A DNA stretch of 64,000 nt from Streptomyces lienomycini (GTDB taxonomy: Bacteria; Actinomycetota; Actinomycetes; Streptomycetales; Streptomycetaceae). The notes below the pieces were generated by a model, which was not told where the DNA came from, made no database searches, and worked only from the letters and a program-made list of their open reading frames with translations. The stretch covers positions 2,232,001 to 2,296,000 of the forward strand of contig NZ_CP116257.1 of assembly GCF_027947595.1 (NCBI RefSeq), read 5' to 3'. Shown piece by piece: positions 37,001-56,791 of the stretch (its first letter is position 1; each line of letters starts with the position of its first letter). A program made the translations under genes and the position numbers.

Positions 37001-38292
37001 TGACGCGGACGCCCACGAGGATCCTCACCCTGTTCGCCTGTGCCGTCCTGCTGCTCACGGGCTGCTCGGGCGGCGGCGACGGGGCGGACGGCGGCCGGAT
37101 CACCCTGCGCTTCCAGTCCCTGGCCTGGCAGGACGAGTCGGTGCAGGCCAACAAGGACCTGGTGCGGGAGTGGAACGCCACACACCCGGACGTGCGCGTC
37201 GAGTACGTCCAGGGAAGCTGGGACAGCGTCCACGACCAACTGCTCACCTCCTTCGAGGGCGGCGAGGCGCCCGACATCATCCACGACGCCTCCGACGACC
37301 TCGCCGACTTCGCCTACGGCGGCTACCTCGCCGACCTCACCGAACTGCTGCCCGCGCGGCTGAGGTCGGACATCCCGCGGCGCAGCTGGGAGACGGTCAC
37401 GTTCGGCGACGGCGTCTACGGCGTGCCGTTCCTCCAGGAACCGCGCGTACTGATCGCCAACGCGGCCCTGCTGAAGAAGTCCGGCGTCCGGATCCCGACC
37501 CCGGAACACCCCTGGACCTGGGCGGAGTTCCGGCAGGTGACGAAGGAGCTGAGCGGCGACGGAAGGTACGGGGTGGCCTGGCCGCTCAAGGAGCCCGTCT
37601 CCGCCACGCTGAACCTCTCCCTGTCCACCGGCGGCGAGCTGTTCCACCGGGGCGCCGACGGCAGGGTGACCGTCCGCTTCGAGGAGGGCGACCAGGTGGT
37701 GCCCCGCACCATCCACGACCAGGTCGACACCGACCGCAGCGCCTCACCCACCACCCTGGGCAGCGGCGGCTCCGACACCCTGCCCGGCTTCTTCGCCGGC
37801 AAGTACGCCATGGTGCCGCTCGGCTTCTCCTACCGCCAGCAGATCGAGCAGCAGGCCCCCGAGGGCTTCGACTGGCAGGTGCTGCCCGCCCCCGCCGGCG
37901 CCGACGGGCTCGCCCAGGGCGTCAGCCCGCAGACCCTGTCGATCGCCGAGGACAGCCCGCACAAGAAGGAGGCCGCCGCGTTCGTCGACTTCCTCCTCCA
38001 GCCGGACAACACGGTGCGCCTCGCACTCGGCGACTGGATGCTCCCCACCGGCGAGCAGGCCCTGAAGGACCCCGCGCTGCACACGGCCGAACGCGGCTGG
38101 GCCACCGGCACCGCGCTCGCCGCCCACCTGCGCTCGGCGCCCGCGCAGTCCGTACGGGGCTACGCCGAGTGGAAGGACAAGGTGGCGACCCCGGCACTCC
38201 AGGAGTACTACAGCGGCGCGATCGGCATGGACGAGCTGCGCCACAGACTGGAGGAGGACGGGAACCTGGTACTCGCCCGGTACCAGCGCTGA
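37000..38292 (+). CDS. Sugar ABC importer substrate-binding lipoprotein (family 1)
   Basis: A 430-residue SBP_bac_1 lipoprotein with lipobox LLTGC (C22). The fold is recognisable from WNATHPDVRVEYVQGSWDS, PDIIHDASDDLADFAYGGYLADL and GVYGVPFLQEPRVL. It should bind an oligosaccharide or glycerol-phosphate-type ligand and deliver it to the MalF/MalG-type pair upstream. The ligand is not deducible and no glycosidase or regulator gene adjoins. It ends 22 bases before the WhiB7-like promoter of the resistance locus. Confidence 0.93.
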   Translation: MTRTPTRILTLFACAVLLLTGCSGGGDGADGGRITLRFQSLAWQDESVQANKDLVREWNATHPDVRVEYVQGSWDSVHDQLLTSFEGGEAPDIIHDASDDLADFAYGGYLADLTELLPARLRSDIPRRSWETVTFGDGVYGVPFLQEPRVLIANAALLKKSGVRIPTPEHPWTWAEFRQVTKELSGDGRYGVAWPLKEPVSATLNLSLSTGGELFHRGADGRVTVRFEEGDQVVPRTIHDQVDTDRSASPTTLGSGGSDTLPGFFAGKYAMVPLGFSYRQQIEQQAPEGFDWQVLPAPAGADGLAQGVSPQTLSIAEDSPHKKEAAAFVDFLLQPDNTVRLALGDWMLPTGEQALKDPALHTAERGWATGTALAAHLRSAPAQSVRGYAEWKDKVATPALQEYYSGAIGMDELRHRLEEDGNLVLARYQR

Positions 38293-38306
38293 CGGCCGTC
38301 CGCGCG

Positions 38307-38344
38307 AAAACCCGTTGCCCGCTCGGCGCACGGCCGTCTAACGT
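38307..38344 (+). promoter_or_regulatory. WhiB7/WblC-type promoter of the macrolide resistance locus
   Basis: An AAAA block (38307-38310) stands just upstream of the -35 TTGCCC (38315-38320). An 18-base spacer leads to the -10 TAACGT (38339-38344). An A/T-rich block next to a TTG-type -35 is the hallmark of WhiB7/WblC-activated promoters in actinobacteria, which respond to ribosome-targeting antibiotics. The predicted transcription start is at or within a base or two of GTG 38352. Confidence 0.65.
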
Positions 38345-38351
38345 CGCGCCC

Positions 38352-38465
38352 GTGGCAGCTTTCAACGCGATCTTCGACTCCGGTCTCGGCCGGGGCTGCA
38401 CGTACTCCATCAGGATGCGTCGCGGCCCCGGAGTCCTGACCGGCCCGGGGTCCCCCCGCCACTGA
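38352..38465 (+). CDS. Putative erm leader peptide (37 codons), possibly leaderless
   Basis: A 37-codon ORF begins with GTG seven bases after the -10 hexamer, so the mRNA probably starts at or next to its start codon. The peptide begins MAAFNAIFDSG and is rich in Gly, Arg and Pro toward the end. It ends 135 bases before erm. Its last third (38435-38443) is exactly complementary to 38542-38550, just upstream of the erm ribosome binding site. This fits a translational or transcriptional attenuator relieved by stalled ribosomes. No literature peptide is claimed here; the function is inferred. Confidence 0.5.
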   Translation: MAAFNAIFDSGLGRGCTYSIRMRRGPGVLTGPGSPRH

Positions 38466-38586
38466 CGCGCCCGGCGCGCAGGACACGCCCCAGGCGGGCG
38501 TGGCGGGGCTGAGCCTCCGCGTTCCCTTTTGCCCCCGTCTTCCGGTCAGGGCCTTCGGCTGCCCGTTTCCCCCTGTCACGGAAGAC
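38435..38586 (+). promoter_or_regulatory. Putative attenuator with mutually exclusive stems in the erm leader
   Basis: Three pairings are visible. CCTGACCGG (38435-38443) pairs with CCGGTCAGG (38542-38550). GTCTTCCG (38537-38544) pairs with CGGAAGAC (38579-38586), ending directly before the erm AAGG at 38587-38590. The two share bases 38542-38544, so they exclude each other. A third hairpin, CACGCCC/GGGCGTG (38484-38502), lies between. This arrangement is what an antibiotic-inducible erm leader needs. Confidence 0.5.
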
Positions 38587-38600
38587 AAGGACCGCAGGCC

Positions 38601-39380
38601 ATGGCCCGCCCCACCCAGCGTGCCCGCACGCTCTCGCAGAACTTCCTCGCCGACCGCCCCACCGCCGAACGCGTCGCCCGGCTCGCCGCCCCCGACCACC
38701 GGCGCCCTCCCCTCCTGCTCGAAGTCGGCGCGGGCAAGGGCGCCCTCACCGAGCCGCTCGCCCGCCGCAGCCGCGAACTGCACGCCTACGAGATCGACCC
38801 CCGGCTCGTCCCCGGACTCCGCGCCCGCTTCGGACGCCGCCCGCACGTCCACGTCGTCGCCGGTGACTTCCTCGCCGCCCGGCCCCCGCGCACGCCGTTC
38901 TCGGTCGCCGGGAACGTGCCCTTCTCGCGCACGGCCGACATCGTCGACTGGTGCCTGACCGCCCCCGGCCTCACCGACGCCACCCTCCTCACCCAACTCG
39001 AGTACGCCCGCAGACGCACCGGCGACTACGGCCGCTGGACCCGGCTCACCGTCCTGACCTGGCCGCGCCACGAGTGGCGGCTGGTGGGCCGCGTGGACCG
39101 GCACCGCTTCCGTCCCGCGCCACGCGTCGACGCCGGCATCCTCCGGATCGAACGCCGCCCCGCCCCGCTGATCGGCGGCGCCGCCGGGCGCGGCTGGGCG
39201 GACCTGGTCGAGCTGGGGTTCTCGGGCGTCGGCGGCTCGCTGCACGCCTCCCTGCGGCGTGCCCACCCGCGGCGCCGGGTGGACGCCGCCTTCCGGGCCG
39301 CGCGGCTCGACCCCGGCGCACTCGTCGGCGAGGTCGCGCCCGAGCGGTGGCTGCGGCTGCACGAGGAGCTGACGGCATGA
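38601..39380 (+). CDS. erm(O): 23S rRNA (adenine-N6) methyltransferase, Erm family
   Basis: A 259-residue Erm/KsgA-type methyltransferase that methylates 23S rRNA A2058, giving macrolide-lincosamide resistance. SAM motif I is EVGAGKG (residues 41-47), an acidic residue follows in AYEIDP, and the catalytic NVPFS (105-109) replaces the usual N-I-P-[YF]. The order erm then mgt is the arrangement of lrm-mgt in S. lividans; lrm is the prototype erm(O), mainly a mono-methyltransferase. ATG 38601 follows AAGG at 10 bases. The long leader with a WhiB7-like promoter suggests induction by ribosome-targeting drugs. Confidence 0.88.
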
Positions 39381-39391
39381 CCCCAAACAAG

Positions 39392-39419
39392 TTGTACGAG
39401 ACGTCTCGTCTCGTATACG
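39392..39419 (+). promoter_or_regulatory. mgt promoter overlapped by a perfect TetR-type operator
   Basis: TTGTAC (39392-39397) and TATACG (39414-39419) are separated by 16 bases. The inverted repeat TACGAGAC (39395-39402) / GTCTCGTA (39408-39415) with a five-base centre covers the spacer. The nested CGAGACGTCTCG is itself a perfect 12-mer palindrome. A TetR-type repressor bound here would block RNA polymerase. mgt's ATG lies eight bases after the -10, implying a leaderless mRNA. Confidence 0.65.
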
Positions 39420-39427
39420 GTCGTCGC

Positions 39428-40630
39428 ATGACCAGTCCCGCGCACATCGCCATGTTCTCCATCGCCGCCTACGGCCACGTGAACCCCAGCCTGGAGGTGA
39501 TCCGCGAGCTCGTCGCGCGAGGGCACCGGGTGACGTACGCGATCCCGCCGCTCCTCGCGGAGAAGGTCGCCGAGGCGGGCGCCGAACCCAAGCTGTGGCA
39601 CAGCACCCTGCCCGGCCCCGACGCCGATCCCGAGGCGTGGGGGAGCACCCTGCTGGACAACGTGGAGCCCTTCCTGGACGACGCGATCCAGTCGCTCCCC
39701 CAGCTCACCGAGGCGTACGAGGGCGACGAACCGGACCTGATCCTGCACGACATCGCCTCCTACACCGCCCGCGTCCTCGGCCACCGCTGGGGCGTGCCGG
39801 CGATCTCCCTGTCGCCCTGCATGGTCGGCTGGGAGGGGTACGAGCAGGAGGTCGGCGAGCCGATGTGGGAGGAGCCGCTGAAGACCGAGCGCGGGCAGGC
39901 GTACTACGCCCGCTTCCACGCCTGGCTGGAGGAGAACGGGATCACCGAGCACCCCGACTCGTTCCTCGGCCGCCCCGACCGCTCCCTGGTCCTGATCCCC
40001 AAGGCGCTCCAACCCAACGCCGACCGGGTGGACGAGAAGGCGTACACCTTCGTCGGCGCCTGCCAGGGGGACCGCACCGCCGAGGGCGACTGGACGCGCC
40101 CCGAGGACGCCGAGAAGGTCGCCCTCGTCTCCCTCGGGTCCGCCTTCACCAAGCAGCCGGCGTTCTACCGGGAGTGCGTCAAGGCGTTCGGCGAGCTGCC
40201 CGGCTGGCACACGGTGCTCCAGGTCGGCAGGCACGTCGACCGGGCCGAGCTGGGTGACGTACCGGACAACGTCGACGTGCGCACCTGGGTACCGCAGTTG
40301 GCGATCCTCCAGCAGGCCGACCTGTTCGTCACCCACGCGGGCGCCGGCGGCAGCCAGGAGGGCCTGGCGACCGCCACGCCGATGATCGCCGTACCGCAGG
40401 CCGCGGACCAGTTCGGCAACGCCGACATGCTCCAGGGCCTCGGCGTCGCCCGCACGCTGGCGACCGAGGAGGCCACCGCCGAGGCGCTGCGCACCGCCGC
40501 CCTCGCCCTGGTCGACGACCCGGAGGTGGCCGGGCGCCTGAAGGAGATCCAGGCGCAGATGGCCCAGGAGGGCGGCACCGGGCGGGCCGCGGACCTCATC
40601 GAGGCGCAGCTGGCCGCCGCGAAGGGCTGA
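39428..40630 (+). CDS. mgt: Macrolide glycosyltransferase
   Basis: A 400-residue GT1 (GT-B fold) enzyme that inactivates macrolides by adding glucose to the desosamine 2'-hydroxyl. The N-terminal acceptor site has H17 in [12 protein letters not shown]. The C-terminal donor motif is [28 protein letters not shown] (cited by its ends, VTHAG and PQAADQ). As I recall the S. lividans Mgt sequence, it is closely similar throughout. I start at ATG 39428, which gives the known MTxxAHIAMFS N-terminus. An ATG at 39377 overlapping the erm stop is in frame but would translate through the operator/promoter region. Confidence 0.92.
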
Positions 40631-56653: not shown

Positions 56654-56730
56654 GGTGGACGCCCGTACCGGTGGCCAAACTTGGAACACGCCGTCCCGAG
56701 CGGCGTACGCGGCCTGAACGGGCCCGTGTG

Positions 56731-56768
56731 GCGGGGGTGGTGCCGTGTCGGCGCAGCACCACCCCCGC
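56731..56768 (-). terminator. Terminator downstream of the AidB-like gene
   Basis: GCGGGGGTGGTGC (56731-56743) pairs perfectly over 13 bp with GCACCACCCCCGC (56756-56768), 12-base loop, 24 bases past the stop at 56792 on the minus strand. Confidence 0.75.
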
Positions 56769-56791
56769 GCCGCACGCGGGGAGCGTCGGGA

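Follow-up and report, generated by a model that had tools for sequence, protein, structure and literature searches.

A putative leaderless arrest leader behind a WblC-type promoter in front of erm(O) of Streptomyces lienomycini

The erm(O) gene of Streptomyces lienomycini is preceded by an arrangement that probably constitutes a two-stage macrolide/lincosamide switch, in which a WblC promoter, a leaderless leader ORF, a ribosome stall within that ORF and a refolding of the leader RNA would act in succession. The gene lies on the + strand at 38601..39380 of the window, the 64-kb stretch analysed here, which was taken from a 7.86-Mb single-contig genome, and its product is recognised as a 23S rRNA A2058 methyltransferase by NCBIfam model NF000087 (ErmO), with 501 bits against a cut-off of 450. 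A first-pass annotation, made from the sequence of the window, had claimed an antibiotic-sensing switch at this place, and that claim now finds support in a conserved promoter, a conserved start spacing, selection on an Arg-x-Arg motif and compensatory changes in a long-range helix. In kind the erm(O) leader would be a case of erm leader attenuation, in a leaderless, WblC-driven variant, and it likely works like a +X+ erm attenuator. The element that would sense the drug, the Arg-x-Arg motif, is an addition to the first-pass annotation, which also lacked a stem internal to the leader ORF (1:2) and an extra stem at 38454-38462/38500-38508.

Downstream of erm(O), and beginning 47 nt past its end, lies mgt (39428..40630, + strand), a macrolide-inactivating glycosyltransferase gene (NF033129, 776 bits against a cut-off of 700) that is perhaps co-regulated with erm(O). 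Between the two genes a near-palindromic repeat, TACGAGACGAGACGTCTCGTA, is found at 39395-39415; it is terminator-like on the - strand, and it could alternatively be a repressor operator for mgt, whose ATG follows close behind. A search with Rfam at gathering thresholds gave nothing at the site of the erm leader and one match elsewhere in the window, RF02827 (Scr6106, Streptomyces RNA 6106) at 56688-56771 on the + strand with 97 bits, distant from the leader.

Promoter and predicted leaderless start

The genome of S. lienomycini contains nine matches to the WhiB family, one of which ends in the AT-hook-like KRPRGRPRK, a tail that I take to mark this protein as WhiB7/WblC. The consensus of WblC promoters in S. 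coelicolor reads GAAAWY, 3 nt, TKGMNN, 16-19 nt, TANNNT (PMC7157823), and the sole strict match to it on both strands of the window is at 38306..38344 (+ strand), consisting of the box GAAAAC (38306-38311), the 3 nt CCG, the -35 element TTGCCC (38315-38320), an 18-nt spacer and the -10 element TAACGT (38339-38344), 7 nt before the leader GTG. The promoter initially read as AAAA, TTGCCC, 18 bases and TAACGT is confirmed base for base, and it fits the published consensus. As WblC raises the transcripts of the Erm(O)-type gene SCO6089 in S. coelicolor (PMC7157823), WblC control of such a gene has already been published, and that part is not new.

In order to follow the arrangement through relatives, erm loci were collected from the genus, where 74 of 392 genomes had a match at E <=1e-40; a scan of genome contigs gave 57 loci, and the collection came to 128 loci (L001-L128), L002 being a KsgA-like match. 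The matched genomes G120, G193, G233, G271 and G333 were left out, two of which (G193 and G333) hold erm(O)-like fragments without the 5' end. A leader was accepted as an ORF of 20-45 codons starting with ATG or GTG, at most 330 nt from erm, with R-x-R in its peptide and [T/C]ANNNT 5-8 nt before its start. This rule found a leader in 106 of the 128 loci; 89 of these leaders are distinct and 80 of the distinct ones belong to the erm(O) clade, defined by at least 69% identity to the Erm of the window. Among the erm(O)-clade loci fetched, the rule missed only L088, whose contig ends 55 nt upstream. A few loci are odd in themselves. L048 and L038 (Streptomyces sp. F001) are two erm matches on different contigs with an identical leader peptide, perhaps an assembly duplicate or a recent copy. 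The Erm match has an internal stop in L102 and is in two pieces in L103 and L104, which are possibly broken copies, as perhaps are L052 and L058, whose start coordinates are displaced by a local match.

The leader ORF of the window occupies 38352..38465 on the + strand and encodes the peptide MAAFNAIFDSGLGRGCTYSIRMRRGPGVLTGPGSPRH in 37 codons, from a GTG at 38352 to a TGA at 38463-38465; both its length and its start 7 bases after the -10 element are as first claimed. A comparison of the leader across Streptomyces erm(O) loci, proposed as a check together with the claim, places the start 6-7 nt after the -10 element in all 80 distinct leaders (7 nt in 76, 6 nt in 4), a uniformity to be read with the leader rule in mind, as the rule itself demanded a -10-like motif at 5-8 nt and could hide exceptions. 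The full promoter is matched strictly in 41 and in relaxed form in 74 of these 80 leaders. When the strict consensus was run over 1.2 Mb of strand sequence from the collected loci, it gave 63 distinct matches, 62 of them with an ATG or GTG 5-9 nt later and 56 at exactly 7 nt; these loci were mostly picked for erm and are hence no random sample. Since published transcription start sites (TSS) of WblC promoters mostly follow the -10 element by 7 or 8 bp (PMC7157823), transcription is predicted to start at 38351..38352 (+ strand), which would give a 5' leader of 0 or 1 nt and a leaderless mRNA whose start codon all but coincides with its TSS. One observation counts against a leaderless start: leaderless mRNAs of S. 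coelicolor prefer AUG (76.4%, PMC4895711), whereas 70 of the 80 erm(O)-clade leaders start with GTG and 10 with ATG.

The Arg-x-Arg motif and the leader RNA

The motif Arg21-Met22-Arg23 (AGG ATG CGT, 38412..38420, + strand) is of the +X+ type that arrests ribosomes with macrolides. R-x-R is present in 80 of 80 leaders, in part by construction, as the leader rule required it. The codon changes behind it come from one parsimony reconstruction of 29 codons on a tree of 77 erm genes, which leaves out 3 of the 80 leaders in which an anchor motif is missing. The first Arg codon changed 8 times synonymously and never nonsynonymously, the second 15 times and never, and the third Arg 20 and 4 times, while the whole leader underwent 104 synonymous and 230 nonsynonymous changes. 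For the two Arg codons of R-x-R together, 23 synonymous changes without a nonsynonymous one have a chance of ~1e-10, given expected synonymous shares of 0.44 and 0.33, an estimate whose extremeness codon and mutation bias would lessen. The x position shows 14 residue changes on the same tree; as it is usually ATG, which has no synonym, only its freedom to vary is informative. The stretch GCC-CTG-ACC, inside arm 2 of the RNA described below, is on the other hand almost unchanging even at silent sites, and this difference from the silently varying Arg codons suggests that the motif is kept as peptide and arm 2 as RNA. In L020 and L079 the frame of the leader is altered beyond R-x-R-R and a shorter peptide results, but both retain arm 2; the leader of L020 ends, by eye, at a TGA within arm 2. 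From these patterns, the erm(O) leader is very probably translated, and Arg-x-Arg is very probably what selection keeps in it, so that the leader appears as an ORF with Arg-x-Arg under selection at the peptide level. Leader-wide pN/pS was uninformative in this respect (0.77 in the true frame vs 0.72 in frame +1). GCG, the codon of the Ala in an x-Ala-[ILVM] element near the N-terminus that is described below, lies outside all proposed stems, yet none of 77 erm(O)-clade leaders departs from it.

A drug-bound ribosome translating ErmDL halts when the x of Arg-Leu-Arg is in the P site (PMC8298421), and by analogy the stall in the window is predicted with the Met22 codon (38415-38417, + strand) in the P site. 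On the same strand, arm 1 (38380..38399), the 5' part of a hairpin within the ORF, consists of CCGGTC (38380-38385) and CCGGGGCTGC (38390-38399). Its 3' arms together span 38422..38443, with GCGGCCCCGG (38422-38431) as the 3' arm of the inner 1:2 helix and arm 2, GTCCTGACCGG (38433-38443), as a partner of either arm 1 or arm 3. Arm 3, CCGGTCAGGGC (38542..38552), pairs with arm 2 in the putative on state through 11 pairs including one G-U. The putative off state is the 3:4 stem at 38537..38586, in which GTCTTCCG (38537-38544) and CGGAAGAC (38579-38586) form 8 pairs, and it adjoins AAGGA (38587..38591), the Shine-Dalgarno (SD) sequence of erm. The two stems sharing 38542-38544, one of them beside the erm ribosome binding site, were present in the first-pass annotation, and both hold when the pairs are checked.

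In relatives the two mutually exclusive stems, 2:3 and 3:4, are conserved or compensated, here counted over 79 of the 80 loci, with L101 left out. Compensatory changes in the long-range 2:3 helix, the kind of conservation the first reading had called for, turn G-C into A-U in L049, C-G into U-A in L058 and A-U into G-C in L108 and L110; 19 of 79 loci have U-G instead of U-A, and an A-C mismatch occurs in 2 of 79 erm(O)-clade loci and also in L107, L109 and L114. Measured from the first base of the x codon, the distance to the beginning of arm 2 is 18 nt in 77 of 79 loci and 17 nt in 2; since the loci share a conserved frame from R-x-R to arm 2, the 77 spacings are not independent. The exact GTCTTCCG/CGGAAGAC stem occurs in 66 of 79 loci, with L050 and L051 altered, by eye, on both sides; the 3:4 stem as found by search adjoins AAGGA, or runs 1 nt into it, in 65 of 76, and in 70 of 79 loci AAGGA begins 14 nt upstream of the erm start. 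The extra stem (38454..38508, + strand), between CCCCGCCAC in the last leader codons (38454-38462) and GTGGCGGGG (38500-38508), was found in 21 of 79 loci, all close relatives of the window with at least 85% Erm identity. Relatives mostly have it as CCCCGCCGC/GCGGCGGGG, from which the window departs by a change from G-C to A-U on both sides. As the gap between arms 2 and 3 is longer in loci with the extra stem (median 98 vs 68 nt), this stem is suggested to shorten the loop between the two arms, and in the clade of the window it would narrow that gap.

The following order of events is proposed. Ribosome stress would raise WblC/WhiB7, which would turn on the promoter at 38306-38344, a step based on the sequence match and on the published WblC dependence of the S. 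coelicolor gene. The transcript would start at the leader GTG or one base earlier, and ribosomes would load at its 5' end without an SD. When no drug is present, ribosomes would traverse the leader and mask or pass arm 2; in the models 1:2 and 3:4 then form, and 3:4, beside AAGGA, would hold erm translation low. A drug-bound ribosome would instead stall at Arg21-Met22-Arg23 with codon 22 in the P site, as in ErmDL, at the very motif on which selection is seen. There it would cover the 3' arm of the inner 1:2 helix and leave arm 2 free from its first base, and arm 2 would pair with the emerging arm 3 before arm 4 exists, forming the helix that carries the compensatory changes. This 2:3 helix would block 3:4 and open the erm initiation region, with a direction and size of effect taken from modelling.

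For that modelling the footprint of the ribosome was set at -14 to +14 relative to the first base of the P-site codon. In masked folding of full-length RNA (n=76; the 3 of 79 loci in which the search found no 3:4 stem were left out), mean 2:3 pairing is 0.51 at x, 0.70 at x+1 and ~0 from x+3, with another, early peak of 0.60-0.61 at x-15/x-14. The full-length RNA of the window shows no equilibrium flip, with 3:4 never below 0.98 and 2:3 never above 0.014 at any ribosome position; its 3:4 is unusually strong at -25.0 (mean -19.9), and its 2:3, at -22.5 (mean -24.9), is weak. In RNA that ends before arm 4, mean 2:3 is 0.99 at x-1 to x+1 (0.997-0.998 in the window), above 0.5 in 79 of 79 loci and ~0 from x+3. 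Here, 2:3 is already likely without a ribosome (mean 0.79, window 0.91) and high at most positions before x (0.61-0.99), and the maximum per locus falls at x+1 in 46, at x in 8, at x-13 in 23 and elsewhere in 2 of 79. As 2:3 is high also without a stall, these models show that it is allowed up to x+1 and lost after x+2, and do not show that it depends on the stall. The unpairedness of the SD is nearly flat (mean 0.26 to 0.31). When the ribosome sits at x and 2:3 is imposed, the erm region -20..+15 opens at a cost of 16.5 kcal/mol, vs 24.1 for a ribosome at the leader end; the former state is the cheaper one in 78 of 79 loci (window 15.8 vs 24.8). Relative to free RNA, the gain is 1.8 kcal/mol (18.4 to 16.5; window 17.8 to 15.8). 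For the shorter region -14..+3, 65 of 79 loci have a lower cost in the on state, and in the window the cost rises from 10.8 to 12.0. The early 2:3 maximum and the small gain over free RNA weaken the step from arm 2 to arm 3 and the opening of erm; taken as models, the folding results point to a kinetic, co-transcriptional choice, in which a ribosome passing x+2 would prevent 2:3, or else to an incomplete model.

Recurrence in other actinobacterial erm loci

A class-wide search found Erm relatives in 60 of 394 genomes and 27 of 137 genera, and the set analysed held 89 distinct loci, made up of class Erms, other non-erm(O) loci and four erm(O) representatives, with 8 loci of the erm(O) clade. 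The distant Erms tested, 10 out of 27 fetched, all scored above the Erm cut-off. A strict rule (a TTG -35 with three A/T among the 9 nt preceding it, a spacer of 17-18, TANNNT, a start 5-10 nt after the -10, and an ORF of 12-60 codons with R-x-R) matches 48 of 89 loci, with a gap of 7 nt in 41 of the 48, and gave 0 matches in 40 shuffle rounds and 0 on the reverse strands. A relaxed rule, with no -35, a start at 6-8 nt and [R/K]-x-[R/K], matches 63 of 89 (shuffle mean 1.6, maximum 5); among the 30 loci that are neither strict matches nor of the ErmS type it matches 18 (shuffle mean 0.68, maximum 3). Both rules together find a similar layout before 66 of the 89 class-wide Erm loci, and the promoter-leader arrangement thus appears not to be specific to erm(O). 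The remaining 23 lack a leaderless leader: 11 were set aside by eye as SD-led loci of the ErmS type, and nothing was found in 12.

The class-wide peptides are mostly different, some short, such as MSCHFFIRIRHNRALAR or MTASMRLRTA, and some long. In 28 of the 34 strict leaders of at least 25 residues, 8 of which are erm(O)-clade ones, x-Ala-[ILVM] occurs near the N-terminus (residues 4-11), where 5.4 are expected from residue shuffles, and the long leaders may therefore be homologous. Long-range pairing after R-x-R is weak across the 48 strict leaders (best z < -2 in 18, median -1.8, window -1.2), so that the claim for 2:3 is confined to the erm(O) clade and its near kin. In the ErmS-type loci L107-L117 a homologous arm, GCCCTG(A/G)CCGG, is present in 10 of 11 by pattern, and a matching arm 3 in 5 of 6 inspected, three of them with one A-C mismatch. 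In L108 and L117 a candidate start that is, by eye, SD-led lies ~66 nt after the -10 of a WblC-like promoter. The same attenuator thus seems to exist in a leaderless and an SD-led form, and L107-L117 offer a natural comparison of the two kinds of sensor.

It is possible, though I put it forward tentatively, that leaderless arrest ORFs behind WblC promoters are the general, and perhaps ancestral, erm sensor of actinobacteria, with a 5'-end start that matters for the mechanism and with SD-led leaders such as the ErmS type being derived. If so, drug-bound 70S ribosomes would load directly on the sensor ORF and the testing ribosome would be one of the inhibited population, while erm would be under double control, with WblC answering to general ribosome stress and the leader to macrolide-type drugs.

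Rival readings and known systems

Three other readings share part of the evidence. It could be that the promoter and leader are as described and the switch is transcriptional, the stall at R-x-R preventing a terminator between leader and erm or the entry of Rho. For tlrA, transcriptional attenuation has been reported, which I counted for this reading, as I did the use of transcription attenuation by wblC (PMC7157823, PMC10727445) and by ARE-ABCF genes (PMC12421871). The window itself has a terminator-like hairpin at 38503-38520 with the tail GTTCCCTTTT, whose 5' arm overlaps the extra stem at 38500-38508; it is one of 2 terminator-like hairpins in 38200-39500 (shuffle mean 0.3), the other being on the - strand. 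Its four-T run, however, begins 6 nt beyond the stem, and its 5'-arm block (GYGGYGGGG) is found with a partner in only 21 of 79 loci, a figure that counts the block and not the hairpin. Nor is the inner hairpin of arm 3 commonly followed by T, as only 25 of 79 loci have a run of at least 4 T within the 10 nt after it, a count in which at least 6 loci took an earlier GCCC, and the best conserved stem, 3:4, precedes AAGGA rather than a T run. I consider a transcriptional switch unlikely, and it keeps its weight because of the hairpin at 38503-38520.

Less probable still is a leader translated from a conventional, SD-led mRNA that starts further upstream. The homologous leaders of L107-L117, which have by eye a purine-rich, SD-like stretch before the candidate start, would fit it, but the 7 nt before the erm(O)-clade leader start are C-rich (most commonly GCCGTCC in 9 of 80 and CGCCTCC in 7 of 80), the -10 element is too near for an SD downstream of the leader's own TSS, and the upstream ORF of the window ends at 38292, 59 nt before the leader. 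Least of all do I expect that the WblC promoter alone matters, with erm set by transcription initiation and the ORF and stems as by-products. The raised SCO6089 transcripts in S. coelicolor (PMC7157823) agree with it; the purely synonymous change of the R-x-R Arg codons, the exact start spacing, the compensatory changes in 2:3 and in the extra stem, and the class-wide recurrence do not.

Should the two-stage switch be real, then downstream of a general stress activator actinobacteria would have put a ribosome sensor that is drug-specific and built on leaderless initiation. It could then be tested whether drug sensing depends on leaderless initiation, and why only some drugs are answered by parts of the WhiB7 regulon; of 8 Mycobacterium abscessus homologues of the M. 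tuberculosis WhiB7 regulon, 7 were induced by erythromycin and only two, whiB7 and a putative transporter, by kanamycin (PMC4974804). The rule of a WblC promoter, 7 nt, a start and R-x-R would also find inducible erm genes whose short leaders annotation may miss.

ermSF/tlrA and ermSV are known Streptomyces erm leaders, and Arg-x-Arg in actinobacterial erm leaders has been noted in surveys of programmed stalling. The first-pass annotation held a leaderless erm(O) leader to be undescribed. This stands as far as the matches listed from open-licence PMC titles and abstract starts go, among which there was no leaderless erm leader and no erm(O) leader, and it is less secure beyond them, as the lrm/erm(O) leader may be in print within the ermSF, tlrA, ermSV and lrm literature. 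Neither Streptomyces nor ErmO was found in the main text of a survey of 35 known erm genes for uORFs (PMC11264731). Within the literature searched, three things are new: the prediction that a WblC promoter gives the leader a leaderless start, the figures for selection on R-x-R, and the recurrence of the layout across the class.

Among known systems, leaders of the ErmDL and ErmCL type are SD-led. The leader of the window differs from them in that its start codon and predicted TSS coincide and that a WblC promoter precedes it, while it resembles them in its short ORF, its +X+ arrest motif and the refolding proposed before erm (PMC8298421). The ErmS type, kin of ermSF/tlrA and ermSV, has an arm homologous to that of the window, but an SD-like stretch before its leader start. 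With the WblC/WhiB7 regulon and the uORF of wblC the window shares the GAAAWY promoter and a sensing based on the ribosome. That uORF, as Lee et al. reportedly found in 2022, controls termination before the activator gene, whereas the window would have a second sensor, sitting on the target gene. Leaderless polycysteine attenuator ORFs in mycobacteria, which Canestrari et al. are said to have described in 2020, likewise are short and leaderless, and they differ from the erm(O) leader in that they sense cysteine and not a drug.
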